A stretch of DNA of 64,000 nt from Neptunicoccus cionae (GTDB lineage Bacteria; Pseudomonadota; Alphaproteobacteria; Rhodobacterales; Rhodobacteraceae), in assembly GCF_002860325.1 (NCBI RefSeq), contig NZ_PKOJ01000007.1, positions 1-64,000 on the forward strand, in the 5' to 3' direction. The notes below the pieces were generated by a model. It was not told where the DNA came from, made no database searches, and saw nothing but the letters and a program-made list of their open reading frames with translations. Positions 1-15,224 of this stretch are shown here, in pieces. The stretch's first letter is position 1. Every line of letters starts with the position of its first letter. A program made the position numbers and the translations under genes.

Positions 1-2457
1 GACGAGGGTACCTCTGTCGATAGCCTGTTGTCGGATATGGCTGAAGAATTGCCCGACGACGAAGAGGAAGACGATGTTGAAGAATTGCTGGCAGGTGTGA
101 CGCAAGACACTGATTTGGGCAGTGATGTCGGCGATGATGAGGGTGAAACCGACCTCGACGATCTGTTAGCGGGAGAAGAGGACAGTACCGACCTCGATGA
201 GCTGCTGGCGGAAGGTGAGGGTGACACTGACCTCGACGATCTACTGGCGGAGGATGAGGACGACACTGACCTCGATGATCTGTTGGCGGAAGATGAGGGT
301 GACGCTGACCTCGACGATCTGTTGGCGGAAGAACAGAGCGATACCGACCTTGATGACCTGTTGGCGGAGAATGAGGACGACACTGACCTCGATGAAATGC
401 TGGCGGGAGAAGAGGACGATACCGACCTTGATGACCTGTTGGCGGGAGAAGAGGACGATACTGACCTCGACGATTTACTGGCGGATGTCGATGACGACAC
501 AGACCTTGAAGACCTGCTGGCGGATGACGGCGAGGAATTGGAAACGGAAGGGGAGGCGAGCGACATGGAGGCAGAGGCGACAGCCGCGAAGGCGCCTTAC
601 AATCCGGCTTTTGGCAAGATGACCGCCCCGAAACCGGAAATCAAGCCGGGGGACCGGCGCAAGATGCGGATAGCTATCCTCGGAGATTTTTCGGGCCGGG
701 CCAATAACGGAGCGTTACAAGGTGGTGCCGATCTTGCCTCACGTAAGGCGATCAAGTTTGACATCGATACGGTCGAAGACGTTATTTCTCGATTTGCGAC
801 AACTCTGACGTTGCCTGTGGGCCGCGACGGATCCGCTATCGAGGTGGAACTGGGAGAGATCGACGATCTGCATCCCGACGAACTCTACGACAATGTAGAG
901 CTGTTTGCCGAACTCTCGGGATTGCGCAGCCAGATCAAGCGGGGCAGCAATCTGGAAGCGCTGGCTGCCAAACTACGCGAATGGGGCGTGGAATTCGGTG
1001 ATTTCAAACTGGCGCGCAAAGGGCGGGCCAAGGGGGCAGCAGCAAATGCGTCCCTGCAGGTCAGCGAATTTGCCGCGCTGATCGGGGCCGAAGCTGCGCC
1101 GAAACCAGAGGCCACCGCAATAGACGACATGATCCAGCGGATCGTTGCACCTTTTGTGGTGGCGGCACCCGATGCCGGCCAGGACTCCCTTTTGGCCGCT
1201 GTTGATCAGGCGCTGGGCGCGGCGATGTCCTCTATCCTGCACCACCCCGACTTTCAGGCGGTGGAGGCCAACTGGCGCACGCTCGACATGCTGGCGCGGC
1301 GGATAGAAACAGGCAGCCATCTGGAACTGGTGCTTTACGACGTGGCGGTAGAGGAATTTGCCGCCGATCTCGCCGCCCATGAAGATCTGGGGGAGAGTGC
1401 GCTTTATGATATGCTGGTGGAACGCCCGCGTCTGAGCGAGGATCAGGGGCCGCTTGCCGCTGTACTGGGGCTATACACATTCGAGGAAACGCCTCCTCAT
1501 GCAGAACTGCTGGCGCGGATGTCCAAGATCAGTGCGCAGATGGACGCGCCATTTATCGCGGCGATGGGGGCGGGGTATCTGCAAACCAAGGCCGAAGACC
1601 TGCACCCGCTTATTGCAAAAACATGGGCGGCCCTGCGCGAAACACCCGAAGCAAAGTACATCGCACTGGCTACGCCACGTTTTCTGTTGCGGATGCCCTA
1701 CGGCAAAAAGACCGATCCGGTAGAGCCTTTCGCCTATGAGGAATTCAACACCCGCGAAGGAATGCGTTCCCTGCTGATGGGCAATCCTGCGGCGCTGGTG
1801 GCGATCCTGCTGGCGCAGACACTGGCGCAGCAGGGGGCAGAGATGTCGCTTGGATCTATTATGACGCTGGACGATATGCCGTTCCATTACATGCAGGACC
1901 AGTACGGCGATCAGGTGGCGCTGCCGTCAACCGAACGTCTGATAAACGTGCGCATGGCAACCGAAACCGTACAGCGCGGCTATCTTCCGGTTCTTTCCAT
2001 TCAGGGGCAGAACGTGGTGCGGCTTGGTTCTTTTAACGGGCTTGGCGGGGGCAAGTTGCTGGGCCTGTGGTCCGGTGAGGAAGCAAAACTGCTGCAATCG
2101 GGAAAAATTCAGCCCCGAACCGGTGTCGCATTGGGCGCAGGTCTGGCCAAAGCCCCGCCAGCAGATGCGGGCGGAGACGGTGTCGAAGAAGATGATGGCG
2201 AAAGTGCCGACGATGATGATGGTTTCGGCTTCGGGGGCGACGACGATTTGGATCTTGGAGGTGACGATGACGATTTCGACCTCGGAATTGATCTGGACGG
2301 CGACGATGATGATGACGCCCTTGATTTGGATCTCGGGGATGACGGAGATCTTGATGACCTGCTGTCGGGTTTTGACGACGATGATGATGACAGCGCTAAT
2401 GATGGTGATGACGAAGATATGGATGAAGATCTGGCAGCCTTGCTGGCGGATCTCTGA
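1..2457 (+). CDS. T6SS sheath-like TssB/TssC chimera with acidic repeat arms (5' end outside window)
   Basis: The frame is open from the first base, so the gene begins upstream; an internal ATG lies at 28 but the acidic repeat style already exists before it. Numbering from the window edge there are 818 codons. Residues 1-180 are Asp/Glu-rich and contain ten tandem 13-residue units. Residues about 215-345 resemble a TssB (VipA) domain (RRKMRIAILGDFSGR, then a DDLHPDELYDN stretch). Residues about 373-700 resemble the N-terminal part of TssC (VipB), with HHPDFQAVEANWRTL and an APFIAA segment. The small C-terminal TssC domain seems absent, and residues about 722-818 form a second acidic arm containing DLDDLL. 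In known T6SSs TssB and TssC are separate proteins that build the contractile sheath. This chimera may be an accessory sheath or baseplate component; its exact role is not known to me. It is the first visible gene of the T6SS operon, 52 bases before vgrG. Confidence 0.75.
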   Translation, partial: DEGTSVDSLLSDMAEELPDDEEEDDVEELLAGVTQDTDLGSDVGDDEGETDLDDLLAGEEDSTDLDELLAEGEGDTDLDDLLAEDEDDTDLDDLLAEDEGDADLDDLLAEEQSDTDLDDLLAENEDDTDLDEMLAGEEDDTDLDDLLAGEEDDTDLDDLLADVDDDTDLEDLLADDGEELETEGEASDMEAEATAAKAPYNPAFGKMTAPKPEIKPGDRRKMRIAILGDFSGRANNGALQGGADLASRKAIKFDIDTVEDVISRFATTLTLPVGRDGSAIEVELGEIDDLHPDELYDNVELFAELSGLRSQIKRGSNLEALAAKLREWGVEFGDFKLARKGRAKGAAANASLQVSEFAALIGAEAAPKPEATAIDDMIQRIVAPFVVAAPDAGQDSLLAAVDQALGAAMSSILHHPDFQAVEANWRTLDMLARRIETGSHLELVLYDVAVEEFAADLAAHEDLGESALYDMLVERPRLSEDQGPLAAVLGLYTFEETPPHAELLARMSKISAQMDAPFIAAMGAGYLQTKAEDLHPLIAKTWAALRETPEAKYIALATPRFLLRMPYGKKTDPVEPFAYEEFNTREGMRSLLMGNPAALVAILLAQTLAQQGAEMSLGSIMTLDDMPFHYMQDQYGDQVALPSTERLINVRMATETVQRGYLPVLSIQGQNVVRLGSFNGLGGGKLLGLWSGEEAKLLQSGKIQPRTGVALGAGLAKAPPADAGGDGVEEDDGESADDDDGFGFGGDDDLDLGGDDDDFDLGIDLDGDDDDDALDLDLGDDGDLDDLLSGFDDDDDDSANDGDDEDMDEDLAALLADL
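145..534 (+). repeat. Ten tandem 39-bp units coding for a 13-residue acidic repeat
   Basis: Ten in-frame 39-base units follow one another exactly. The consensus is DTDLDDLLA followed by four mostly acidic residues. Unit starts fall at 145, 184, 223 and so on to 496. The TDLDDLLA core hardly varies (changes include DADL, DELL, DEML, LEDLL), while the last four residues vary (EDED, EEQS, ENED, GEED, DVDD). Degenerate copies continue upstream toward position 1, for example a DDVEELLAG segment. The DNA repeats are imperfect, so protein-level selection or an old expansion is likelier than a very recent duplication. Copy number could vary between strains. Confidence 0.9.
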
Positions 2458-2509: not shown

Positions 2510-4561
2510 ATGGCCGACCCACTGCCGCTTGAAGGCCGTTCGCAAAGGGTGACTTGCGAAGGCCAGCCCTGCGATCTTTACATGCTTTCGGCTGACATCA
2601 GCGAGGGCATCGACCGGTTGAGCGATTTCACGGTAGAGTTTCTTGCAGAGAAACCCGATCTTGAAAGCAGGGATTTTCTGGCGAAGTCCTTCACCATCGA
2701 AATGGATTTGGAATCCGGTGTGCGCAAGTGGTTGGGCACCTGTGTCGAGTGTACGTTTCTTGGCATGTCTGCGGGTATGGGGTTTGGAACCTATGCCCAC
2801 TACAAGGTACGCCTGCGGGCCTGGCCGTGGTTGCTGACCCGCAATGCGAACTGCCGGATTTTTCAGGAGTTGACCGCTGATGAAATCATCAAGGCGGTGC
2901 TGCGCGATGCCGGTTTTAGTGATCACCGCTGGGTTGTCAGTGAAACACCGCCGGTGCGGGAATACTGTGTGCAATACCGCGAAAGTGACTGGAACTTCAT
3001 CCGCCGCCTTTTGGAGGAAGAAGGTAGGTTCTTCTACTTTGATTACAGTTCCGGCAAGGACCAGCTGACAATAAGGGATGACAGTGCTGCTCTGCCACCG
3101 ATTGACGGGGATCCGGAGATCGAAATGATCGACAAGGAAGCGGGCCAACGCTCTGAGATCGATTACATCGACAACTGGAAGGATGGCTACCGCGTCGATA
3201 CGGATAAAGTCACTCTGGATGATTACGATTTTACCAAATCGAAAACCAAATTGACGGGGACCCGCAAGCACGAAGCCGAGAAACTTGAAGTGTTCGATTA
3301 TCCGGGCCGGTTCAACGTCGGTGCAGATGGTACCAAACGGGCCCGTCGGCGGATGGAAGCGATCATAGCGGGCAAGAATCGCGTGTGGGGGCAGGGAATT
3401 GTCAAAGCCATGACACCGGCAGCAAAGTTCACGTTGAAAGAGCATCCTGCCCGCGCCCAAAACAAAGAATATCTGGTTCTGACGCTGGAGCAGAAGCTGC
3501 GCATTGAACGGACAGACGAAAAACGTGAAATGTCCCGCAGTGGGAAACACGACCCGCTGGCGCTGATTGAATCCCAAACTATCGAGCTAACCGCGCAGGA
3601 TGCAAAAATCGCGTATGTACCGGTGTCTACAATTCCCTGGCCTGTCATTCACGGCGTCCAGACGGCTGTAGTGGTTGGCCCAAGCGGGGATGAAATCTAC
3701 ACCGACGAGCACGGACGCGTGAAAGTTCAGTTTTTCTGGGATCGTGGAGGAAAAACCGACGAAAAATCCTCCTGTTTTATCAGGGTTGCCACGCCAATTG
3801 CCGGAAAAGGCTGGGGGATGATCCATATTCCGCGCATCGGACAAGAGGTGGTTGTCCAGTTTCTTGAAGGTGATCCGGATCGGCCTTTGATCGTGGGCAG
3901 TGTGTATAACGATCAGCAAACCACGCCGTTTTCCTTGCCTGACAACAAAACCCAGATCGGTCTTGTTAGCGATACCCACCAGAACGAGGACACAAACGCC
4001 AAGCATGAATTTGTCATGGAAGAGAAAAAGGACGAAGAATACATACGTATGCAGTCCGAGCGGGATTACACCCAGATCATCAAAAACAGTGCGGATGTAA
4101 AGATCGGTTGCGCGGATAAACCGGACGGGGATTATACCCAGTCGGTCTGGCGCGATACCACACGGAAATACGGCGTCGAAAGCGGCGAGGGCAATCTAAC
4201 CGAAACTGTTCAGACCAATTTCAGCAAAACAGTCAGTGACGGGGATTATACGTTGGCCGTGGAAACCGGAGGGCGCACGACAACCATTACATCCGACGAT
4301 ACACTGACGGTGGATGGTAATATTGATATGACCACGTCGTCTTCAGCTACGCTGACCGCCTCAAGCTCGATCACTCTGAAAGCGGATTCCTCGATCAAGC
4401 TGGTTTGCGGGGGATCGACAGTTGAACTAACGCCAAGCGCAATCAAGCTGACCTCCTCACAGATCAAAATCCAAGGTAGTCAGGTTAAGGTTGCTGGGAG
4501 CGTGGTTGATGTCGCGGGGAGTATGATCAAACTGGCGGGTGCATTGGTTAAAATCAATTAG
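2510..4561 (+). CDS. vgrG: T6SS spike protein VgrG (TssI)
   Basis: This 683-residue protein is a VgrG/TssI tip protein of the T6SS, a trimer carried on the Hcp tube. The gp27-like part covers about residues 1-380 (LEGRSQRVTCEGQPCDLYML at the start, an ESDWNFIRRLLEEEGRFFYF segment near 160-180). The gp5-type OB fold lies around 390-470, with DEHGRVKVQFFWDR and the IPRIGQEVVVQFLEGDPDRP signature. The rest is a repetitive beta-helix needle of short Ser/Thr/Val repeats that ends at the natural terminus, so there is no C-terminal effector domain. An AAGGAG ribosome binding site stands 6 bases before the ATG. The gene is followed 11 bases later by a DUF6931-like gene and then PAAR. Confidence 0.95.
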   Translation: MADPLPLEGRSQRVTCEGQPCDLYMLSADISEGIDRLSDFTVEFLAEKPDLESRDFLAKSFTIEMDLESGVRKWLGTCVECTFLGMSAGMGFGTYAHYKVRLRAWPWLLTRNANCRIFQELTADEIIKAVLRDAGFSDHRWVVSETPPVREYCVQYRESDWNFIRRLLEEEGRFFYFDYSSGKDQLTIRDDSAALPPIDGDPEIEMIDKEAGQRSEIDYIDNWKDGYRVDTDKVTLDDYDFTKSKTKLTGTRKHEAEKLEVFDYPGRFNVGADGTKRARRRMEAIIAGKNRVWGQGIVKAMTPAAKFTLKEHPARAQNKEYLVLTLEQKLRIERTDEKREMSRSGKHDPLALIESQTIELTAQDAKIAYVPVSTIPWPVIHGVQTAVVVGPSGDEIYTDEHGRVKVQFFWDRGGKTDEKSSCFIRVATPIAGKGWGMIHIPRIGQEVVVQFLEGDPDRPLIVGSVYNDQQTTPFSLPDNKTQIGLVSDTHQNEDTNAKHEFVMEEKKDEEYIRMQSERDYTQIIKNSADVKIGCADKPDGDYTQSVWRDTTRKYGVESGEGNLTETVQTNFSKTVSDGDYTLAVETGGRTTTITSDDTLTVDGNIDMTTSSSATLTASSSITLKADSSIKLVCGGSTVELTPSAIKLTSSQIKIQGSQVKVAGSVVDVAGSMIKLAGALVKIN

Positions 4562-4572
4562 GGGGCGATGTA

Positions 4573-5169
4573 ATGGACAAAGCGTCAAGCAGTGCTGTAG
4601 ATTTCAGCGGTTTGAAAAAAATTCCCGACGTTGCTTTCGGGCCGTTCTGCCGCGAAAACAAAATCAAGATCGATCCGGATTTGGGAATTGCTCCTGAGAC
4701 ACCATTAAAGGATGGGCTGGCTGCCTTATACGATGCACGGGCGGTTCCGTCATTCCTCCACGTGATGGCGCACGGGCTCCCAGTGCGGGAGTCCGTCTGG
4801 CTAGCTTGCCATGCAGCAGAACGAATGGTGCCTGAAGGGGCAGAACCGCCAAATACACTGCAAACCGCGCGGGCTTGGGTCTATAAACCAGACACGAAAA
4901 CCCGTGCTGCCGTACAGCAGGCGATCGAAAAGGCCGATCAGGAAGATCCAACACTGATGGCGGCAGATGCCGCGTTTCACGGCATCGTTAAGGGGCTGGA
5001 AGACGAAGTGAAAAGCCCTCCAACGGCTACTCCGACACTGGTGTTCGCAGTGTTGCTGAGCGCTGCGCTACGGGAAGAGGACATGGAACAGGCAGAAGCG
5101 AACTGGCAGGATCTGGTCGCTCTCTCAGTCGATATCGCCTCCGGTGGCACAGGGGAAAAACATTCGTGA
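4573..5169 (+). CDS. DUF6931-like T6SS-associated protein
   Basis: This 198-residue soluble protein has no signal peptide or membrane segment. The central part, with FLHVMAHGLPVRESVWLACH at about residues 60-80, resembles from memory a family listed as DUF6931, seen beside T6SS genes; no function is established. It is acidic and mostly helical by composition. It sits between vgrG (11 bases upstream) and PAAR, the place where T6SS adaptor or chaperone genes are often found, so an adaptor role is possible but only inferred. An immunity or regulatory protein is an alternative. The start at 4573 is preceded by GGGGCG at close spacing. Confidence 0.6.
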   Translation: MDKASSSAVDFSGLKKIPDVAFGPFCRENKIKIDPDLGIAPETPLKDGLAALYDARAVPSFLHVMAHGLPVRESVWLACHAAERMVPEGAEPPNTLQTARAWVYKPDTKTRAAVQQAIEKADQEDPTLMAADAAFHGIVKGLEDEVKSPPTATPTLVFAVLLSAALREEDMEQAEANWQDLVALSVDIASGGTGEKHS

Positions 5170-5551: not shown

Positions 5552-7150
5552 ATGACCCTCACGCTGCAAATTCTGTCCAGTGGTGCCCAGCCGGGCCGTG
5601 AAACCGCCTTTCCCTTGATCGGCGGCGCGTTAACCATCGGGCGGTCCGAGACCAATAACGTGGTTCTGCCCGATCCCACCCGCGAGATTTCCTCTTCTCA
5701 TGCGGTGGTGCAGGAAAGGGCAGGGGATTACGTGATCGTCGATACCTCTACAAACGGCACTTTCCTCAATGGCGAAACCGAACCGCTCGGGGATTTTCCG
5801 ACGCCCTTGAATGACGGGGATGTTTTGCGGATCGGACCTTATGAAATGCAGGTCGTGATTGCCACGGCCAGTGCCTCTTCTGATCCATTCGACGATCTGC
5901 CTCCCCCGCTGGGGGAAGAACCGATTGTAGAGGATAGGGCTCCGACGCTCGATACGTTGGCAGAGGTCGGCAGTCTGGACAATGACGGCGGAGATTTTCT
6001 CGATGATCTTCTGGGGGAAGCGCCGCCGAATGCAATGAATATGAAAACGCCGGAACTGTCAGATGATCCCGATAACACCATTGACGATTTTCTTGACGTG
6101 GCCCCCAACCCTGACCGCGAAGGCGGCGCGAGTGTTCCGGATCACTCAGGGCCCGGACATGATTTCTTCCATTCCAACAGCACCGCGCCCTCTATTCCCG
6201 ATAATTGGGAAGACGATCTGTTGGGCGCGAAACCCGAACCGATGGGAGGGCCGCCAAATGCAAGCACGCCAACATCTCCTGCGCCTGCGGGGGGCGGGTT
6301 GATACCGGAGACAACGTTTTCTTCCGAGCCGTTCACCATACCGGACCCTCAGGCCGCTCCGGACAAGCCGGAAATTGTGGAAAACTCCAGCGGTGCTGAT
6401 CCGATAGACGAATTGCTCGGCGGCCCGTTGGAACCTGCCCCGCAGGCGTCGTCAGAACCGGATATCCAGCCGGAGGAACAGGCCGAGCCGCAACCGGACC
6501 CACCAGCGGAGCCTGCGCCAGTTGCTGTGCCCGAGCCTGCTGACGGCCCTGTCTCCGGCAGTGACGCTGCGCTGGCACGACAGTTTCTGAGCGCCGCAGG
6601 CGTAGATCACAGCCGGATTGATGACATTGAACTCGGCCCGATCATGGAACGTACAGGTATCGCATTCCGCACCCTTGTCGAAGGCGCGCGGGAAGTTTTG
6701 ATGGCGCGGGCCTCGATCAAGGACGAATTGCGGCTGGGCCAGACCATGATTTCGCCGGATGGTAACAACCCGATCAAGTTTTCCATCTCCGGTCAGCAGG
6801 CGGTTGAAGCGATGATCAAGCCGACCGTTGCAGGGTATCAGGCCGCTGACAAAGCCGCCGCCGAAGCGATGATGGACATCAAGGCCCATGAGGTGGCGAT
6901 GATGTCAGGCATGGAAAGCGCGATAAAAACCCTGCTGTCGCGGTTCGATCCGGCGGAACTTGCAACCCGAATAGAGGACAGCGGCCGATTGGGAGGCTTG
7001 CTCAAAGGTAAAAAAGCGCAATACTGGGATGTATTTGAAAAACTCTACAAACAACTGTCCGAAGACGCAGAAGAAGATTTTAACACCTTGTTCGGCAAGG
7101 AATTTGCCAAAGCCTACAAGGATCAATTGCAGAAACTGAAATCGAATTAG
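5552..7150 (+). CDS. tagH: T6SS FHA-domain protein TagH (Fha)
   Basis: This 532-residue protein has an N-terminal FHA phosphothreonine-binding domain (about residues 1-105, with IGRSETNNVVLPDP, SSSHAVV and DTSTNGTFLNG). A long acidic, Pro-rich linker runs from about 106 to 340. The C-terminal domain (about 340-532) matches the TagH family of T6SS proteins. In known systems (Pseudomonas Fha1, Agrobacterium Fha) the FHA domain binds a Thr-phosphorylated partner and promotes assembly. The linker carries four D-D-L-L-G-like motifs: FLDDLLG 149-155, TIDDFLD 176-182, WEDDLLG 219-225 and PIDELLG 284-290. They resemble the repeat core of the first gene in the window. The ribosome binding site is weak, with GGAG about 14 bases upstream. 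Confidence 0.93.
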   Translation: MTLTLQILSSGAQPGRETAFPLIGGALTIGRSETNNVVLPDPTREISSSHAVVQERAGDYVIVDTSTNGTFLNGETEPLGDFPTPLNDGDVLRIGPYEMQVVIATASASSDPFDDLPPPLGEEPIVEDRAPTLDTLAEVGSLDNDGGDFLDDLLGEAPPNAMNMKTPELSDDPDNTIDDFLDVAPNPDREGGASVPDHSGPGHDFFHSNSTAPSIPDNWEDDLLGAKPEPMGGPPNASTPTSPAPAGGGLIPETTFSSEPFTIPDPQAAPDKPEIVENSSGADPIDELLGGPLEPAPQASSEPDIQPEEQAEPQPDPPAEPAPVAVPEPADGPVSGSDAALARQFLSAAGVDHSRIDDIELGPIMERTGIAFRTLVEGAREVLMARASIKDELRLGQTMISPDGNNPIKFSISGQQAVEAMIKPTVAGYQAADKAAAEAMMDIKAHEVAMMSGMESAIKTLLSRFDPAELATRIEDSGRLGGLLKGKKAQYWDVFEKLYKQLSEDAEEDFNTLFGKEFAKAYKDQLQKLKSN

Positions 7151-7165
7151 GAAAGGACTGGAATT

Positions 7166-7606
7166 ATGTTAGCGAAATTCAAGCTTACGGGCCTGTCTCT
7201 GGTCGTAGCCGGGTTAATGGCAGCTTGTACGCCATCACCGACCGAAGTTGCCATGAACATCACCGCCAGCGCAGGAGTAAACGGCGGACTGCCGGTCAAG
7301 GCGACGATCTACTATCTGAACTCGACCTCGAAGTTTAACGGTGCGGATTATGCCTCGCTTGCGGGCAGCCCCGAAGCGGTGCTTGGTGCAGATCTGGTGC
7401 GTACGCAATCTGTCCTCTTGTCTCCCGGACAAACCAAGAATGTATCCGCGGCCTTTGAAGGCGAAGGCCCTGCTGCCCTTGGCGTAGTTGTAGGGTTCAA
7501 GGCGATTTCAACTGCAAAATGGCGCACCACAACGGCTTTGGCCAGTGGGAAGGTCAATGCGTTGACGATCTCGCTCGGCGCAAACAGCGTGAATATCTCT
7601 AAATAG
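7166..7606 (+). CDS. tssJ: T6SS outer-membrane lipoprotein TssJ
   Basis: This 146-residue protein has a lipoprotein signal peptide (hydrophobic residues 7-20, lipobox LMAAC with Cys21). The mature part is a small beta-sandwich-like domain that includes NGGLPVKATIYYLNSTSKF, in keeping with the TssJ/VasD family (SciN). TssJ is anchored in the outer membrane and binds the periplasmic end of TssM in the T6SS membrane complex. GGAAAGGA lies 8-10 bases before the ATG. The gene is 15 bases after tagH and 14 bases before tssK. Confidence 0.93.
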   Translation: MLAKFKLTGLSLVVAGLMAACTPSPTEVAMNITASAGVNGGLPVKATIYYLNSTSKFNGADYASLAGSPEAVLGADLVRTQSVLLSPGQTKNVSAAFEGEGPAALGVVVGFKAISTAKWRTTTALASGKVNALTISLGANSVNISK

Positions 7607-7620
7607 GAAGGACGCGCTAC

Positions 7621-8961
7621 GTGTCTTGGGAAAGTAAAGTCATCTGGTCCGAAGGGTTGTTCTTGCAGCCCCATCACTTCCAGCAGAATGACCGCTATCT
7701 GGAAAGCCAGATTGCGGGTGTATCGCGGGGGGCTGCGCCCTATGTCTGGGGGCTGCGCGAGCTGACCATAGATGACGAATTGTTAAGGCTGGGTAAATTC
7801 GCCATCAAATCCTGTGACGGGATCACACCGGACGGCACCAGCTTTCGCATTCCGGCGGTGGATGACCTTCCGCCCGCGATGGAGGTTCCCACGACGGTTA
7901 AGGATTCCGTGGTTTATCTGGCAATCCCGACACGGCGTCACGGTGCGGTAGAGGTGGAACTGGAATTTCACGAAAACTCCGCATCGCGCTACCAACCCGC
8001 AGAGGTCGACGTGACCAATGCCGTCGGGCGGGATCGCAAGGCGACGACCATTGGCGTGGGCAAGCTGCGATTGCAATTCGCCCTTGATCTGGATGATCTG
8101 GAAGACCAGCTTGTCATCCCGATCGCCAAGGTGATCGAGGTGCGATCGGACGGGGAAATCCTGCTGGATCGCTCTTTTATACCGACAGTTCTGGACCAGC
8201 GGGCAGCAAAGCCGCTGACCGAGTTTCTGAGAGAAATCGAAGGGCTGCTCGGCCACCGTTGCGAAGCGCTTTCGGGGCGTCTGGCGGACAACGGGCCCGC
8301 CAAAGGTGTGGCAGAGCTGTCTGATTACCTGTTGTTGATCACAGTGAATCGCTACCTTCCGCAAATCCGCCATCTGGGGCTGGTGGAAAATACCCATCCT
8401 TGCGGGCTGTTCATGCTGCTTGTAGGGCTGGCTGGCGAACTGGCGACATTCATGGCGCCGGAAAAACGCCCTCCGGAGTTTCCTCCTTACCGTCACGACA
8501 GTCTGACAGAGACCTTCCAGCCGCTAATCCGCACGCTGCGCCAGTATCTGTCCGCAGTTCTGGAGCAAACGGCGGTGTCGATCCCGCTGCAACCGCGCAA
8601 ATACGGCGTTTCTGTCGGCGTGATCGCGGACAAACGGCTGCTCAGCGATACGCAGATGGTGCTGGCTTGTAAGGCGGAAACCGCCGCCGAAAACATCCGC
8701 CGCCATATGCCGACACAAGCCAAGCTGGGACCGGTGGAGGATATCCGGCAGCTGGTGAATTCCGCGTTGCCGGGGATCGGCCTGCGCCCCTTGCCGGTGG
8801 CACCGCGCCAGATCCCTTACCATGCGGGGGTGGTGTATTTCGAACTCGATCCGGACAGCGAGTACTGGAAAAAGATGCGCACCTCGGGTGGGCTGGCAGT
8901 GCATGTGGCCGGGGAATTTCCGGGACTGGAAATGGAATTATGGGCGATCCGCAACGGATGA
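7621..8961 (+). CDS. tssK: T6SS baseplate protein TssK
   Basis: This 446-residue protein begins with the family's conserved VIWSEGLFLQPHHFQQND and covers the full length of TssK (VasE/ImpJ). TssK is the trimeric cytoplasmic connector that joins the baseplate wedges to the TssL/TssM membrane complex. The start is GTG at 7621; GGAAGGA lies about 8 bases upstream, and the conserved N-terminus begins there, which fixes the start. No truncation is seen. Confidence 0.96.
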   Translation: MSWESKVIWSEGLFLQPHHFQQNDRYLESQIAGVSRGAAPYVWGLRELTIDDELLRLGKFAIKSCDGITPDGTSFRIPAVDDLPPAMEVPTTVKDSVVYLAIPTRRHGAVEVELEFHENSASRYQPAEVDVTNAVGRDRKATTIGVGKLRLQFALDLDDLEDQLVIPIAKVIEVRSDGEILLDRSFIPTVLDQRAAKPLTEFLREIEGLLGHRCEALSGRLADNGPAKGVAELSDYLLLITVNRYLPQIRHLGLVENTHPCGLFMLLVGLAGELATFMAPEKRPPEFPPYRHDSLTETFQPLIRTLRQYLSAVLEQTAVSIPLQPRKYGVSVGVIADKRLLSDTQMVLACKAETAAENIRRHMPTQAKLGPVEDIRQLVNSALPGIGLRPLPVAPRQIPYHAGVVYFELDPDSEYWKKMRTSGGLAVHVAGEFPGLEMELWAIRNG

Positions 8962-8985
8962 GCCGCTTGAAAACGAGGTGCTAGG

Positions 8986-10350
8986 GTGAACAAAGACGAT
9001 CCTTTTGCGGAACCGGGGGACACCGAGAAAACGGTTGTGAACCTCAATCCGGGCGGTCGCTCTCCCGCCGCACCTGCTACGCCCGCGGCACCAGCACCAG
9101 AGCCAAGCCCGCCGCCGGTGGCTGCGACGCCTACGCAACAGGCGGCACCGGTTGATATAAATGCGGCGCGTTCCGGCCTGAACCCGTTAAACGCCGCCGC
9201 AGCGCCACTGTTCTCTCTTGTTGGGCGTATCCGCAACCGCGCCCAGCACAATGATCCGACTGCGCTGCGCAACGCGGTCGTGCAACAGATACAGACCTTC
9301 GAAACCACAGCCTTGCAGGCGCAAGTTCCGGCACAACAGGTTAAAATCGCGCGTTACGCGATCTGCGCCACCATCGATGACGTGGTGCTGAACACGCCTT
9401 GGGGCGGGCGATCTATCTGGGCGCAGCAGTCTATGGTCGGTACGTTCCACAAGGAAACCCATGGCGGTGACCGCTTTTACGAACTGCTGGCTCGGCTGGA
9501 AAAGGAACCGACCGTTAACCTTCTTCTCCTAGAGTTCATTTTTATGTGCCTCTCTCTCGGCTTTGAAGGGCGCTTGCGCGTCGAGGATCGGGGCGCGGAG
9601 AAACATGCAACCATTCGCGCAGGGCTCGCCAGCTTGATCCGCGCCCAGCGGGGACCACTGGAGCCGGAGGTCGCGCCGGTGTGGAAAGGATTGAAATTGC
9701 CACACAAACCGCTCAGCGCCTGGATGCCTGCATGGCTGATCTTTGGCCTGATGACGGTGGTTCTGGGTCTGTCCTATGTCGGTCTGGCTTGGGCGCTGTC
9801 GGGGGATACGGAGCGACTGCAAGGCCAGCTTGCGGCATTAGGCGCGCGGGAACAGGTAGAACTGAAACGGCAGGCACCACCGCCACCGGCCCCTCCACCT
9901 GTGGAAAGCGGCCAGAAGGAGCGTGTGGCCAAATTTCTGGAAAAAGAGATTGAGGAGCAGCTTGTCACCGTATTTGACGATGCCAATACAGTAACTGTCC
10001 GGATCAAGGGTTCGGGTATGTTCCAGCCGGCCTCGGACACATTGGTAGACCGGTTTGAACCGATTATGAACCGGATCGCCGAAGCCTTGAATGAAGAACC
10101 CGGAAAGATCATCATTGCGGGTCATTCCGATAACATTCCGATCAAGACCGCACGGTTTCCGTCCAATCTGCATCTGTCGCTGAAACGTGCGGAAAAAGTG
10201 ATGCAATCCATTGCCGGCACTTTGAACGATCCTGCACGTATGTCTGCTGAAGGACGGTCCGACAAAGAGCCGATTGCCGATAACGGCACCCGGGAGGGAC
10301 GGGCGGAAAACCGGCGGATCGAAGTAATTTTGATGAGAGAGAACAACTAG
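8986..10350 (+). CDS. tssL: T6SS inner-membrane protein TssL with OmpA-like peptidoglycan-binding domain
   Basis: This 454-residue evolved TssL (DotU/IcmH) starts at GTG 8986, after GAGG. Residues 1-60 are Pro/Ala-rich and include DPFAEPGDTEKTVVN. The DotU cytoplasmic domain lies at about 65-230, one transmembrane helix at about 244-268, and a C-terminal OmpA/MotB-type peptidoglycan-binding domain at about 320-454 (IIAGHSDNIPI, LSLKRAEKVM, ENRRIEV). It anchors the membrane complex to the cell wall and binds TssM and TssK. Thr13 or Thr16 at the N-terminus could be a phosphorylation site read by TagH, as reported for Agrobacterium TssL. tssM begins on the next base after the stop. Confidence 0.95.
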   Translation: MNKDDPFAEPGDTEKTVVNLNPGGRSPAAPATPAAPAPEPSPPPVAATPTQQAAPVDINAARSGLNPLNAAAAPLFSLVGRIRNRAQHNDPTALRNAVVQQIQTFETTALQAQVPAQQVKIARYAICATIDDVVLNTPWGGRSIWAQQSMVGTFHKETHGGDRFYELLARLEKEPTVNLLLLEFIFMCLSLGFEGRLRVEDRGAEKHATIRAGLASLIRAQRGPLEPEVAPVWKGLKLPHKPLSAWMPAWLIFGLMTVVLGLSYVGLAWALSGDTERLQGQLAALGAREQVELKRQAPPPPAPPPVESGQKERVAKFLEKEIEEQLVTVFDDANTVTVRIKGSGMFQPASDTLVDRFEPIMNRIAEALNEEPGKIIIAGHSDNIPIKTARFPSNLHLSLKRAEKVMQSIAGTLNDPARMSAEGRSDKEPIADNGTREGRAENRRIEVILMRENN

Positions 10351-13300
10351 ATGGCGGTTTTCCGGCGGATATTTCAGTGGATTTTCCACACCAATGGCAT
10401 TCTCGCTATTGTAGCGGGCCTGTTGATGGCGTCGGTCTGGTTTCTCGGGCCAATTCTCGGGATTGGTGGCAGCTTTCCACTGGAAACGGTAACGGCCAGA
10501 CTGATCGCCATCGGTATCATTTTTGTCTTTACCCTGTTCCTAATGCTGCTTCTGGCTCTGTTGCGGGCACGCCGCGAAGGTAAGATGGCAGACGAGATCG
10601 TCGAGGTGGAGGACGATCCTGCGGAAGAACAGGATGAAGCCGTCAAAGCCGAAATGGCGGAAATGCGCAACCGGATGCGCGACGCGCTCAAAACCCTGCG
10701 CAAATCCAAACTGGGCGGGCGCGGGCGCAGCCAGAAGCTCTATCAACTGCCGTGGTATCTGATGATCGGGCCACCGGGAGCGGGCAAAACCACAGCGATT
10801 GTTAATTCGGGTCTGAAATTCCCACTGGCCGAAAAAATGGGGATGCAGGCGATTGGCGGTATCGGGGGCACGCGCAATTGTGACTGGTGGTTCACGGATG
10901 AGGCGGTTCTGATTGACACGGCCGGCCGCTACACCACGCAGGACAGCGATGCAGAGGCCGACAGTCGCGCGTGGAACGGCTTTTTGAACATGTTAAAGAA
11001 ATTTCGCAAACGCCAGCCGATCAACGGGGCGATAGTTGCGATTTCCCTGTCCGATATTGCGGTGCAAAACGAAGCACAACGTAAGGAATACGCCACCGCA
11101 ATCCGGCTGCGTCTGACTGAGTTGCGCGAAAAACTCGGGGTGCGTTTTCCGGTTTATATCCTGCTGACAAAAGCAGATCTTCTCGTTGGTTTCACAGAGT
11201 TTTTTGAGAACTTGGGCAAAGAGGCCCGCGAACAGGTTTGGGGTTTCACCTATCCGATGGAAGGCCCCAAGGACAAGCGCAAGCCGCTGGATGGATTTGA
11301 TGCGCAGTTTGAAACCATGCTGGCCCATCTGAACGATTTGTCACTGGACCGGATGGCACAGGTTTCCGATCCCCAGCGTCGTTCCATGATTGCCGGTTTT
11401 CCCCAGCAGGTGGCCAGCCTGCGTCCGGTGGTGCGGGAGTTCCTGTCGGAGATTTTTCTCGACAGCAAATTTTCACAGACTCAACTGGTGCGCGGGGTGT
11501 ATTTCTCTTCCGGTACACAGGAAGGCACGCCGATCGACCGGCTGATGGGCGGCATGGCACGGACCTTTGGTCTGGGGCGTCAGGCACTCGGGTCAGGGCA
11601 GGGCGCAGGACGCAGCTATTTCCTGCGCAATCTGCTGGATAAGGTGATCTTTCCGGAAGCCGGTCTTGTCTCGGTCGACGATAAGGTGGAGCGCCGCTAC
11701 CGCTGGATCGTTCGGGGGACAGTGGTCGCCGCGGTGCTGCTGACCCTTGGTGTTGTGGGGCTTTGGACCAACAGCTTTCTGGGAAACCGGCAGTTGGTGG
11801 CAGATGCAAAAACGCAGATCGAACTTTATTCCTCAAAAGTCGCCGATGTGCCGGGGAACCCGATTGCCGATACGGATGTGCGCCAGCTTGTTGAACCGCT
11901 GGATATTCTGCTGGCGATGCCGGGCAACCCGTCCCAGACCGATCCGCTGCCGCCGCGCAGTCTGACCTATGGTCTGTATCAGGGGGATGCAGTGGGGACG
12001 GAAGCGGCGCAAACCTATCGCGCAGCCCTGAACCAGAAACTCCTGCCCCGTCTGCTGCTGCGGATGGAGGAGCTGATCCAGTCCAATCTGAACAATGAAA
12101 CCCTGCTGTTTGAGGCGCTGAAGGTGTATATGATGCTTGGCCAGCAAGGACCAATGGACCGTGATCTGGTGTTGCAGTGGTTTACCCTGGAATGGGCCAA
12201 TGAATTTGCCGGTGAACCTGACGCAGCTTCGCAAACGGCGCTTGTGACCCATCTGACAAATATGATCAACCAGCCCATGATCTCTATCCCGCTGGACGGT
12301 CCGTTGGTGGAACAGGTGCAGGGCATTCTGTCAGAAACTCCGGTGGCGGCGCGGGCTTATCGTACCATCGTGGAAGGGCCGGAGGCCAAGGCGCTTCCGG
12401 ACTGGACCCTGCTTGTGGCGGGTGGTGCCGCGACCAATCAGGTTATGGTCCGCCCGTCCGGTCTGCCCCTGTCAAGCGGTGTGGAGGGGATCTATACCTA
12501 TGACGGTTTTTATAACGTCTTCCTTCCCGCCGCCCTTGATGTGGCCGAACAGATCAAAAAGGATAACTGGGTTCTTGGCCCCCGCGCAGAAGATCTGAGC
12601 GATACAAATGCGCTGGCGCTGATCGCGCGGGATGTACTCGACCTTTATTACGCCGACTACATCATCGCCTGGGAAACGATTTTAGGCGATGTGGATATTG
12701 CGCCGATGTCATCCATGTCCCAGACTGTGAAAACATTGAACCTTCTGTCCGGCCCGTCCTCGCCTGTGTTCAAAATCATGAATCAGGTGGCGGAACAAAC
12801 GCGGTTGGCTGAACGGCGTGCAAATGAGGTTGTAGAGGGCGTGGCCAGCGGATTCAGTGAGGAAGGCAGCGCACTTGCACTGGAAGGGCTTGGCGTACGC
12901 ACGCAGCGGTTGCTGGCTGTGCTGCAGTCTGCGGCTACCGTGGATGGTGCAGCCCCGCCCAAGCCCGGCCAGCAGGTACAGGATCGGTTTAACAGCCTGC
13001 ACACCTTCGTCAAAGGTCTGGACGAGAATACACCGGGCGATATCAACCGCATCATGGAACTCTACGTCGCGGTCTATCAGGAGCTGAACCGCCTGTCGGT
13101 CGGGGGCACAGTGACGGGGCAGGGAGAGGCGGTACAGCGTTTGCAGGAAGCTATCGTGCCGATGGATGGCCCGATCAAACGCTGGTCCACCCAGATAATC
13201 GAATCCGCCTCGGGGGCTGCAGCGGGCGGGCAGCGCTCCAAGCTGAACAACCAGTGGCAGGCACAAGTCCTGCCATTCTGCAAGCAAGCTTTGGACAACC

Positions 13301-13929
13301 GCTATCCATTTAACAGAAAATCCCGCGCAGAGGTGGGCATACAGGATTTTGCCCGCCTGTTTGCACCTCAAGGGTTGATCGATACATTCTTTACCACCCA
13401 TCTGGCAGAGCATGTGGACGTATCCTCGCGCCCTTGGAAGTTCAAACGGACCACGGGTAAGGATCTCGGGATTTCAGACAGTGTACTGCAACAGTTTGAA
13501 CTGGCTGCCGAAATCAGGGATGCCTATTTCCTTGCGCCTGGCCTGCCGTCAATTACCTTTGATCTCAAACCTATCGCGCTCGACCCGAACGCACAGGAGG
13601 TGACTCTGCTGATCGACGGGCAGCCCCTGAACTATGCCCACGGTCCGCAACAGACGACATCTCTGAAGTGGCCGCAGGGCGGCAGCACGTCTGTCACCTT
13701 CAGTCCGTCAATCGAAGGACGCAGAAACCAGCGCCAGATGGACGGGCCTTGGGGGTGGTTCCGTCTGCTTGACAGTTCGGAGATCCGCCGCACCAATGTA
13801 GCCGATCAGACCCGCATTGTGTTCAATGTGGGCGGGCGCATCGCCGTATTCCAGATGCGGGCCGGTTCTGCGATCAACCCGTTCTCTTCCAAGGCGGTGC
13901 GGCTGTTTCGCTGCCCCAATTCGCTCTGA
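10351..13929 (+). CDS. tssM: T6SS inner-membrane protein TssM (IcmF)
   Basis: This 1192-residue protein is a full-length TssM/IcmF. Two transmembrane helices lie at about 12-34 and 45-70, followed by a cytoplasmic NTPase-like domain with an intact Walker A (GPPGAGKTT, from residue 140) and a DTAGRY motif. A third transmembrane helix is near 450-475, and a large periplasmic part reaches the C-terminus, where it contacts TssJ. TssM forms the trans-envelope core with TssL and TssJ. The gene starts immediately after the tssL stop, and tagF follows one base after its stop, so translation is probably coupled. Confidence 0.96.
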   Translation: MAVFRRIFQWIFHTNGILAIVAGLLMASVWFLGPILGIGGSFPLETVTARLIAIGIIFVFTLFLMLLLALLRARREGKMADEIVEVEDDPAEEQDEAVKAEMAEMRNRMRDALKTLRKSKLGGRGRSQKLYQLPWYLMIGPPGAGKTTAIVNSGLKFPLAEKMGMQAIGGIGGTRNCDWWFTDEAVLIDTAGRYTTQDSDAEADSRAWNGFLNMLKKFRKRQPINGAIVAISLSDIAVQNEAQRKEYATAIRLRLTELREKLGVRFPVYILLTKADLLVGFTEFFENLGKEAREQVWGFTYPMEGPKDKRKPLDGFDAQFETMLAHLNDLSLDRMAQVSDPQRRSMIAGFPQQVASLRPVVREFLSEIFLDSKFSQTQLVRGVYFSSGTQEGTPIDRLMGGMARTFGLGRQALGSGQGAGRSYFLRNLLDKVIFPEAGLVSVDDKVERRYRWIVRGTVVAAVLLTLGVVGLWTNSFLGNRQLVADAKTQIELYSSKVADVPGNPIADTDVRQLVEPLDILLAMPGNPSQTDPLPPRSLTYGLYQGDAVGTEAAQTYRAALNQKLLPRLLLRMEELIQSNLNNETLLFEALKVYMMLGQQGPMDRDLVLQWFTLEWANEFAGEPDAASQTALVTHLTNMINQPMISIPLDGPLVEQVQGILSETPVAARAYRTIVEGPEAKALPDWTLLVAGGAATNQVMVRPSGLPLSSGVEGIYTYDGFYNVFLPAALDVAEQIKKDNWVLGPRAEDLSDTNALALIARDVLDLYYADYIIAWETILGDVDIAPMSSMSQTVKTLNLLSGPSSPVFKIMNQVAEQTRLAERRANEVVEGVASGFSEEGSALALEGLGVRTQRLLAVLQSAATVDGAAPPKPGQQVQDRFNSLHTFVKGLDENTPGDINRIMELYVAVYQELNRLSVGGTVTGQGEAVQRLQEAIVPMDGPIKRWSTQIIESASGAAAGGQRSKLNNQWQAQVLPFCKQALDNRYPFNRKSRAEVGIQDFARLFAPQGLIDTFFTTHLAEHVDVSSRPWKFKRTTGKDLGISDSVLQQFELAAEIRDAYFLAPGLPSITFDLKPIALDPNAQEVTLLIDGQPLNYAHGPQQTTSLKWPQGGSTSVTFSPSIEGRRNQRQMDGPWGWFRLLDSSEIRRTNVADQTRIVFNVGGRIAVFQMRAGSAINPFSSKAVRLFRCPNSL

Positions 13930-13930
13930 C

Positions 13931-14503
13931 GTGTTCGGTTTTTTTGGCAAAATCCCCGCCCACGGCGATTTCATCCGCTCCCGCGGTAATGTATCCTTCA
14001 TCAACGGATGGGATGGTTTTTTGCAACAGGGGCTGGAGGAAAGCCGTCGTCGTCTCAAAGGAGACTGGGATGCGGCCTATCAAAATTCTCCGATCTGGCG
14101 GTTTCTTCTGGAACCGGACATTTGTGGGGGGCAGGCCGTGACGGGTGTTCTGATGCCCAGCCAGGATCGTGTCGGTCGCCGCTTTCCCCTGACACTGTTT
14201 CATCCGCTGGCAAATCCGGCCGTGCCTGAATTGCTCGACGATGATCCTTTAATGACGGAGCTCGAAAACATCGCGCTGGCCTGTCTGGATGCGCAGATCG
14301 ACAAGGGTGAACTGGTCCGAAGGCTTGAAGGGGTAGATTTCAGTACAGCGCCGGCCTCGGGCAGTATGAGCAGGCAATCCTACTGGCTTTCCACCTTCTT
14401 TGGCGGCGCTGCGAGACGGGATACACGCCGCTTTGACGGGTTACCGGAGCCTGCGCGTTTTGAAGAGCTTCTTTCACCGGATCGGGGGCAACAGGATGTT
14501 TGA
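13931..14503 (+). CDS. tagF: T6SS-associated protein TagF
   Basis: This 190-residue protein starts at GTG 13931, one base after the tssM stop. The first residues FGFFGKIPAHGDFIRSRG match the TagF family (DUF2094, ImpM), which supports this start over in-frame codons inside tssM. TagF is a post-translational repressor of T6SS assembly in Pseudomonas and Agrobacterium. In Agrobacterium it is fused to PppA. Here the 3' end overlaps pppA by 8 bases, which is a split form of the same pair. Confidence 0.92.
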   Translation: MFGFFGKIPAHGDFIRSRGNVSFINGWDGFLQQGLEESRRRLKGDWDAAYQNSPIWRFLLEPDICGGQAVTGVLMPSQDRVGRRFPLTLFHPLANPAVPELLDDDPLMTELENIALACLDAQIDKGELVRRLEGVDFSTAPASGSMSRQSYWLSTFFGGAARRDTRRFDGLPEPARFEELLSPDRGQQDV

Positions 14504-15224
14504 ACAGGGACCAATGTTCCGCACTGACGCGGCCACCCATGTAGGACTTGTGCGCGACCTGAACGAAGACAGTATGATCAGCCGGGAGAACCTCGGGCTG
14601 TGGACTGTTGCGGACGGCATGGGGGGGCATGCGGGCGGCGATTTCGCCAGCCAGACCATTGTGGCGGCGATCAGGGCTATTCCGGACGCGCTTCAGGGGG
14701 GCGAACTGATGCAGGCGGTTCGCGATGCGTTCCATTCGGCACATCAAACCATTCAAAACGAAGCCGAACTGCGTGAAGGGGGCACTATGGGCTCCACAGC
14801 GCTCTCGTTGATCCTGCGACAGGACTATTTCGTCTGCTTGTGGGTCGGTGACAGCAGGCTGTACCATTGCCGGGACGGAGCCGTGCGTCAGTTGTCCTCG
14901 GATCATTCTCTGGTGAATGAGTGGGTGGAAGAAGGCAAGCTGACCCGCGAAGAAGCCGAACGCCACCCCCATGGCAATGTCATCACGCGCGCGATCGGGG
15001 TCGGAGAAGTGCCAGAAGTTGCCAAGATCCGCGGCCAGTACGAGCCCGGAGACCGGTTCCTGTTATGCTCTGACGGGTTAAGCGGGTATATGGAAGAGGC
15101 GGATATCTTCAGCGTGCTTGCCAATGACCCGATGGAAGGGATTGCCGACCGGCTGGTACAGGGGGCTCTGGATGGTGGCGGGCGGGACAATGTGACCGTA
15201 ATCGTGGTCGAGGTGCCGTGGTAG
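14496..15224 (+). CDS. pppA: T6SS PP2C-type serine/threonine phosphatase PppA
   Basis: This 242-residue protein has all the usual PP2C motifs: VRDLNEDSMIS near the N-terminus, DGMGGHAGGD for metal binding, GDSRLYHCRDG, CSDGLSGYM, and a closing GGRDNVTVIVVEVP. In T6SS control PppA removes the phosphate placed by the kinase PpkA and so switches assembly off. I chose ATG 14496, since the conserved domain begins about 20 residues later; a further in-frame ATG lies at 14514. It overlaps tagF by 8 bases and is the last T6SS gene. The kinase partner is not in this window. Confidence 0.93.
   Translation: MFEQGPMFRTDAATHVGLVRDLNEDSMISRENLGLWTVADGMGGHAGGDFASQTIVAAIRAIPDALQGGELMQAVRDAFHSAHQTIQNEAELREGGTMGSTALSLILRQDYFVCLWVGDSRLYHCRDGAVRQLSSDHSLVNEWVEEGKLTREEAERHPHGNVITRAIGVGEVPEVAKIRGQYEPGDRFLLCSDGLSGYMEEADIFSVLANDPMEGIADRLVQGALDGGGRDNVTVIVVEVPW

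Follow-up and report, generated by a model that had tools for sequence, protein, structure and literature searches.

Why do two proteins of one T6SS locus, the scaffold TagH and a chimera of sheath domains, carry copies of a short acidic motif around D-D-L-L, and do they thereby dock on the same partner? To our knowledge, it is not settled how a T6SS chooses its site and how the TagH scaffold, the membrane complex and the sheath are joined. A sequence-only reading of the locus had proposed that the copies in disordered regions of both proteins serve one shared docking partner and multivalent assembly. Here, we follow the motif through the window (the whole analysed stretch, i.e. the first 64 kb of contig C15 of a 4.29 Mb genome), other parts of that genome and related loci.

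Organization of the locus

Half a T6SS cluster sits at the left end of the window. It begins with the C-terminal part of the sheath chimera gene (1..2457, + strand, with matches to T6SS_VipA and VipB of Pfam), which runs off the contig at window base 1 and is open at that end. Then follow the genes for VgrG (2510..4561, +, TIGR03361), a DUF6931 protein (4573..5169, +, PF22011), TagH, the series TssJ, TssK, TssL, TssM and TagF as the remainder of this cluster half (7166..14503, +, Pfam and NCBIfam), and a PP2C-type, PppA-like phosphatase (14400..15224, +, Pfam). The DUF6931 protein shares 26-40% identity with its relatives in the other loci, which is variable given its position between VgrG and TagH; it is perhaps an adaptor.

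The second half of the cluster forms the end of contig C14 and is read toward the contig end in the order TssA, TssB, TssC, Hcp, TagJ, TssE, TssF, TssG, ClpV, a coiled-coil-like protein, an ion channel and a second TssB, which enters repeats and then runs off the contig. The names from TssA to ClpV were assigned by reading, those of TssB and TssC alone being backed by Pfam matches; the window genome also possesses canonical TssB and TssC. Beyond TssA, C14 encodes a protein with a protein kinase domain (Pkinase). The coiled-coil-like protein between ClpV and the channel (L034 1925-3316, − strand, C14 end) gave no Pfam match with its 411-aa reading; such a protein occurs in 13 rows of the scanned loci, the own genome counted. 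The putative N-terminal part of the chimera, at the C14 end (L034 3-1016, −), comprises a full TssB, in which the VipA domain is complete (PF05591, positions 2-151 of 155), and the start of the repeats. Because the gene is continuous in relatives, we infer that the chimera pieces on C14 and C15 are one gene.

The sheath chimera

The C-terminal part of the chimera consists, in this order, of acidic repeats, a TssB-like domain, a region resembling the N-terminal domain of TssC and an acidic tail. The second TssB-like (VipA) domain (667..939, +) matches PF05591 over positions 29-121 with 28.5 bits, and the TssC/VipB N-terminal domain (1183..2025, +) matches PF05943 with 142 bits. VipB_2 (PF18945) was absent from the window chimera and the two relatives tested, whereas the canonical TssC of the same genome has both domains, and with the TssC model TIGR03355 the chimera reached 151.1 bits, i.e. 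less than the curated cut-off of 271.5. A structure model of the TssB/TssC core was of high confidence (pTM 0.79, mean pLDDT 83) and found TssC chains as structural matches (5n8n, 3j9g, 5urw). As a whole, the chimera joins TssB through a linker to a TssB/TssC unit in which the C-terminal domain of TssC is missing (TssB–linker–TssB/TssC). With TssB/TssC (VipA/VipB) it shares recognisable TssB-like and TssC N-terminal domains, but it differs from them by the fusion into one chain, an identity of 28% to canonical TssC over part of the length, the missing VipB_2, an often present extra N-terminal TssB with up to about 1,000 bead residues, and conserved tail motifs. A phage origin of the core was considered and rejected, with no PHROG match up to an E value of 0.1 and only weak matches to phage sheaths. 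According to the available part of PMC3702570, TssC40 of Agrobacterium is likewise a second divergent TssC-type protein beside canonical TssC; as nearest paralogues, TssC40-like proteins were rejected, because the second TssC of a tandem scores below canonical TssC against the chimera core, where the second TssC of tandem pairs from two family genomes stood in for TssC40 and the analogy is our own reading.

After the core follows a disordered acidic stretch with two predicted helices. The first tail motif, DLDDLLSGF (2347..2373, +; predicted helix 588-594), and the second, DEDMDEDLAALLADL at the C-terminus (2410..2454, +; predicted helix 614-622), are both conserved in alignments A1 and A3. 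The consensus of the helices reads D-L-D-x-L-L-A-x-[FL] and, at the C-terminus, [MI]-D-x-[ED]-L-x-A-L-L-x-x-L; variants occur, the second motif is absent in L149, and the tail motifs can be followed, in varied form, out to MAGs labelled Planctomycetes.

The linker in the window contains a tandem array of ten 39-bp copies (136..524, +, Tandem Repeats Finder), which encodes 13-aa TDLDDLLA units. The sequence-only reading had counted TDLDDLLA ten times and had noted DLDDLL in the tail besides. The tail copy is there, at window position 2347, and ten units were found as well, of which six are exact and four are variants (TDLDELLA, ADLDDLLA, TDLDEMLA, TDLEDLLA). Because they form one DNA tandem array of period 39, the ten units are not independent and do not count as ten separate observations. 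The proposed multivalence is real in the chimera as regards its many motif copies.

The threonine in these units raises the question whether the TDLD repeats represent pThr-x-x-Asp sites made by the kinase of the cluster and read by the FHA domain of TagH. FHA domains prefer pThr-x-x-Asp, a Pkinase-domain protein and the PP2C phosphatase flank the cluster, and of the 11 motif sites in the window chimera, 8 have T with D at +3. However, among the 60 loci with at least three sites this applies to more than half of the sites in just two, the window and L038, and overall to 37 of 581 sites, which rules out TxxD phosphosites as a general feature and makes such a switch very improbable.

Distribution of the chimera family

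A VipB match was found in 35 of 149 genomes of the family, and 15 of these 35 have a second, divergent one (142-167 bits); the 15 exclude one more match, a partial one in G004, and the tandem TssC pairs of G022 and G039. The divergent matches lie in frames of 601-1,781 residues. With one genome per species, at least 508 stretches related to the core were listed, canonical TssC possibly among them, and the 79 loci in which the match spans from the TssB-like into the TssC-like part were kept. By their titles, these belong mostly to Rhodobacteraceae and roseobacters, and also to Roseibium, Pseudovibrio, Rhizobium sp. GN54, Rhodospirillales, Siccirubricoccus and MAGs labelled Planctomycetes and Spartobacteria. 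The complete chimera set (window 1-2457, L034, L035-L049 and L093-L171) has 94 rows, 89 of them distinct (five duplicates), so that counts taken across the two locus sets are not wholly independent.

In 56 of the 82 loci with a readable start, the core is preceded by an extra full TssB, and the linker between the two measures roughly 180-1,030 residues. The linkers differ from locus to locus in length and bead sequence, and the valence varies accordingly, some chimeras having almost no linker and others one of about 1,000 residues. On the profile of tail motif 1, 60 of 66 chimera linkers beat their own shuffles (p below 0.05; mean best score 19.5 vs 6.5). Since the linkers fit the tail profile better than shuffles do, the tail helix appears to have been amplified into the beads.

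Some relatives of the core stand apart. In Siccirubricoccus L167 (9926-11902) the gene lies away from every T6SS gene that tblastn detected, and LDALL occurs several times in its tail. No other T6SS matches were found near L167, L129, L139, L142, L146 and L160, except for a VgrG match in L146 and a weak channel match in L129; these isolated relatives come from Siccirubricoccus and from MAGs labelled Planctomycetes or Spartobacteria, some of them beside proteins that we read as TPR-like.

A channel gene next to the chimera

Directly upstream of the chimera, at the C14 end, lies the channel gene (L034 988-1860, −). Among proteins of known structure, its product of 291 aa is best matched by 5hvx ('Ion transport protein'), at 1.6e-79 over residues 21-280, i.e. 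along the whole channel, and contains Ion_trans (PF00520); NavAb is named in entry 6p6w. Judged by these matches, it is a bacterial voltage-gated sodium-channel homologue. Of the 82 loci that could be judged, 58 have a channel gene immediately before the chimera and 24 have none there (11 of 93 loci were left out as undetermined, and start codons were chosen by rule). In 51 of the 58, i.e. 51 of the 82, the channel stop overlaps the chimera start by 4-22 nucleotides. In searches of open-access papers, titles and abstract starts revealed nothing on a sodium channel within a T6SS cluster, on a TssB-TssC fusion with repeats or on a TagH motif.

The motif sites of TagH

TagH (Fha; 5552..7150, +) is composed of an N-terminal FHA domain (PF00498, 57.2 bits), a disordered linker and a T6SS_FHA_C domain (PF20232, 185 bits), and the whole protein reached 297.2 bits with the NCBIfam model TIGR03354 (cut-off 120.25). 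It resembles TagH/Fha of the T6SS threonine-phosphorylation pathway (TIGR03354; Agrobacterium, Pseudomonas, Acidovorax) in the sequence of FHA, linker and T6SS_FHA_C, in cluster position and in the kinase and phosphatase near the cluster. The linker (aa 106-341; 5867..6574, +) is mostly predicted to be disordered by pLDDT: between aa 111 and 320 the 10-residue means of the AlphaFold2 model are about 38-55, and the model gives the linker no confident placement.

Within this linker, D[DE][LF]L occurs at aa 151, 178, 221 and 286 (window 6002, 6083, 6212 and 6407) in FLDDLLG, TIDDFLD, WEDDLLG and PIDELLG, with spacings of 27, 43 and 65 residues, which confirms the four sites that had been read there. 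Shuffles of the linker (aa 106-341) contain on average 0.046 copies, and none of 20,000 reached four. Among 749 ORFs sampled from the genome (248,237 aa; read from ATG starts alone, in 0.8 Mb of genomic sequence and the remainder of the window), two have two copies and none has three or more. Nor is the motif equally common in other acidic regions, since 5 of 134 acidic 60-residue windows of low hydrophobicity from the genome have one copy and none has two; those five look, on our own reading, like RTX-type GGxGxD repeats. Both proteins thus contain a disordered multivalent region, TagH with four sites in its low-pLDDT linker and the chimera with many.

Apart from prolines and single positions, the best-conserved linker stretches of 53 aligned TagHs form three islands. 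The first, G-D-F-L-D-D-L-L-G (77-96% per column), corresponds to site 1, GDFLDDLLG (5990..6016, +; predicted helix 149-153). The second, I-P-D-D-W-D-D (92-100%), belongs to site 3, IPDNWEDDLLG (6194..6226, +; predicted helix 221-224), in which the IPDDWDD portion is nearly invariant and the LL portion less so. The third, G-A-S...H.....D-x-F (aa 192-206; 6125..6169, +), is without the motif. In the AlphaFold2 model the only helices of at least four residues within aa 106-335 are the two conserved sites, albeit at low confidence. Site 2, TIDDFLD (6077..6097, +), is weakly conserved by alignment and pattern counts, many relatives having DPIDDLLPPLG near it, and site 4, PIDELLG (6401..6421, +), has no alignable counterpart in the orthologues. 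Because site 2 is weak and site 4 lacks a counterpart, the argument from conservation rests on two of the four copies.

Pattern counts extended these results to 73 of 83 TagHs from chimera-bearing loci, 6 of 7 from chimera-less loci of the same subtype and 10 of 14 from other subtypes, short or incomplete proteins being dropped. Site 1 was present in 61 of 73, 5 of 6 and 0 of 10, respectively, and IP[DE][DNE][WF][DEA] in 72 of 73, 6 of 6 and 0 of 10; with identical proteins removed, the chimera-bearing loci gave 56 of 68 and 67 of 68. The misses of site 1 include near variants, namely DFLDALL (L095, L104) and AFLDALL and DVLDELL (L097, L144), and six of the 68 distinct full-length TagHs fit neither of the two site-1 patterns used (L036, L099, L100, L101, L163, L164), those of L100 and L164 having other phi-D-x-L-L sites. 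Conservation in orthologous linkers therefore holds for sites 1 and 3 and for this subtype only, which distinguishes it from TagH/Fha of other subtypes. We know of no description of the GDFLDDLLG and IPDDWDD islands. One genome of the family has two TagH genes of different subtypes (G124, C1 and C12).

Composition and repeat slippage alone, i.e. acidic low-complexity sequence without any binding role, could produce several of the features described so far: the array in the window repeats a 39-bp unit in tandem, linkers of different loci vary in length and in the sequence of their beads, and the single DDLL of the tail is expected from composition (p 0.37). This explanation is nevertheless improbable in view of the conservation of TagH sites 1 and 3 inside an otherwise variable linker, the specific residues kept in the tail motifs and the failure of shuffled linkers to reproduce the motif. 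Both motifs are probably helical docking motifs, as far as sequence and predicted structure can tell.

The chimera itself can hardly be all that TagH binds. In the sister loci L050-L054, ClpV is followed by VgrG without channel or chimera (5 of 5), and the TagHs have site 1 in four of five and IPDDW in five of five; these loci span the position of the cassette, while in L055 the absence of the chimera rests on the single VipB match of the genome. Because such chimera-less sister T6SSs mostly keep the TagH sites, the partner of TagH would not be the chimera alone.

A shared core within different motifs

How similar are the motifs of the two proteins? Per distinct protein, the core phi-D-[DE]-L-L occurs 3.33 times in the chimera (73% carry it) and 1.20 times in TagH (68%), and at most 0.02 times in every other T6SS family of the fetched loci. 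The core is thus regular in TagH and the chimera only, with the reservation that a laxer core pattern also scores TssK (0.90 per protein, in 81% of distinct proteins; TagH 1.72). The longer pattern phi-D-x-LL-xx-phi is found 5.06 times per chimera, 0.48 times per TagH, 0.19 times per TssA, 0.07 times per TssM and at most 0.04 times in the rest; the TagH matches stem mostly from IDDLLPPL, a form that the window TagH lacks. In any frame of the 4.29 Mb, D-phi-D-[DE]-[LF]-[LF] has 18 matches, nine in the chimera and nine scattered singly, and the TagH sites do not fit this six-residue pattern.

The longer motifs differ, D-F-L-D-D-L-L-G in TagH versus D-L-D-x-L-L-A-G-F in the chimera. On the chimera-tail profile, the window TagH scores 0.2 bits, not above its own shuffles (p 0.375), whereas TagHs exceed their shuffles (p below 0.05) in 43 of 67 chimera-bearing, 2 of 6 chimera-less and 0 of 6 other-subtype loci, these being the loci in which the TagH linker could be delimited. 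What is certainly shared is a short core in a predicted helix inside an acidic disordered segment. The N-terminus of TssA was considered as a general third carrier and rejected, with high scores in just 3 of 16 TssA rows (LNLDTLLAGFDGE of the window genome with 22.6 bits, L051 with 16.7 and L071 with 14.1, the top of the 749 background ORFs being 12.6); most further TssA N-termini of the subtype resemble MDLAVLLQSKGDD and are without the later hydrophobic residue.

Given such a short common core, the two proteins may have acquired their motifs by convergence, with short acidic amphipathic LL helices, which arise readily in evolution, having evolved separately as genuine docking motifs for different partners. 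Besides the window TagH and the tail having only the short core in common, convergence would explain why the TagH motif persists in loci without a chimera and why site 3 is dominated by IPDDWDD, which the consensus of the chimera tail lacks. On the other hand, the core is regular in no other T6SS family of the loci, and in the distant, Rhodospirillales-titled L164, in which the chimera lies close to TagH, FDALLG and FDSLLG occur in TagH. We regard convergence as a serious possibility, if a rather doubtful one. The interpretation of the sequence-only reading is supported in part. One shared docking partner, as originally proposed, is unsupported, with TagH retaining the motif without the chimera and the window TagH missing the tail profile.

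ClpV as a candidate partner

A more specific reading is that FLDDLL and DLDDLL copy the LLDEII helix of TssC, so that TagH and the chimera would both hold ClpV. That helix is the means by which some TssC proteins recruit ClpV, according to the accessible part of PMC4239648, and it is likewise short, helical and hydrophobic-acidic and lies in a flexible part of a sheath protein. The motifs resemble LLDEIM, ILDSII and LLDEII of VipB, HsiC2 and HsiC3 (PMC4239648), and ClpV-TssC binding modes differ between systems, as stated in the available portion of PMC5048182. In the chimera-bearing L047, moreover, Gln and Gly replace the Arg/Asp pair of the ClpV groove. This L047 is, however, the one clear exception: the subtype belongs to the TagJ class, and by pattern both Arg and Asp are present in 65 of 80 ClpV rows, one of the two being found in 11 further rows where the second residue was not read. 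In P. aeruginosa ClpV1 this pair is reported to obstruct the groove, and in the consulted sections of the same paper LLDEII occurred only with aliphatic grooves (PMC4239648). Where the N-terminus of canonical TssC was read in rows of the subtype, it is EFASLL-like and not LLDEII. The present system hence differs from the published LLDEII system (PMC4239648, as far as available) in its Arg/Asp groove, the presence of TagJ and the location of the motif, which lies elsewhere and also in TagH. Since the ClpV class of the subtype carries the pair reported as obstructing, ClpV is disfavoured as the common partner on sequence grounds, and the copying of the TssC helix appears unlikely.

The chimera could meet ClpV by another route. 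A SQKFIARNRAPRV-like TagJ-binding N-terminal peptide is found in 54 of 94 chimera rows; the remaining 40 have no TssB1, or their start is truncated or of another sequence. The SQKFIARNRAPRV-like region of TssB is where TagJ/HsiE1 binds (PMC4239648, part seen), and because its TssB keeps such a peptide, the chimera could bring TagJ and ClpV.

A model and its implications

Tentatively, and with somewhat less than even confidence, we favour the reading that TagH and the chimera carry docking helices with a phi-D-x-L-L core and that the chimera is a sheath-anchored multivalent scaffold for the same or related components. According to this model, the TagH sites GDFLDDLLG and IPDDWDD-LL would serve as fixed handles with which the FHA scaffold grips a core component of the T6SS, probably where the machine is assembled. 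On the chimera side, the conserved pair of tail helices would have been amplified, in many loci, into the bead linker, which joins a full TssB to a TssB/TssC pseudo-protomer that lacks the C-terminal domain of TssC. The full TssB, still equipped with the TagJ-binding peptide, could join the sheath, and the chimera would then concentrate the same or related components near the growing or ending sheath. The pseudo-protomer may be unable to extend the sheath and could sit at one of its ends.

Phase separation, as also suggested by the sequence-only reading, is a reasonable idea because Fha/PpkA condensates have been published for Acidovorax citrulli, in which TagH/Fha phase-separates and the condensates recruit T6SS parts (PMC12607579, partly available). 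The likeness to our locus would lie in an Fha scaffold that condenses and draws in components of the T6SS; in the accessible text of that paper the words 'motif' and 'linker' were not found and no sheath chimera is mentioned.

For further work, the conserved TagH motif provides a direct handle, e.g. in pull-downs with a peptide of nine residues. As a natural sheath protein that is multivalent, with a valence that varies, the chimera offers in related strains a series in which the role of avidity in sheath assembly can be tested. The TssB–linker–TssB/TssC chimera, with its gene overlapping a channel gene, is a larger finding than the motif. One may speculate that the channel and the giant sheath-derived bead protein, being translationally coupled, form an electrically triggered condensate for T6SS assembly, an idea that we consider unlikely at present. 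The channel would sense a depolarisation of the membrane, for instance from the attack of a neighbour, and the bead protein, joining TagH via the shared core, would gather sheath and scaffold there. If true, such a cassette would exist in many T6SSs of Rhodobacterales-type bacteria. The overlap of channel and chimera genes may also place some bacterial sodium channels in a cellular context.
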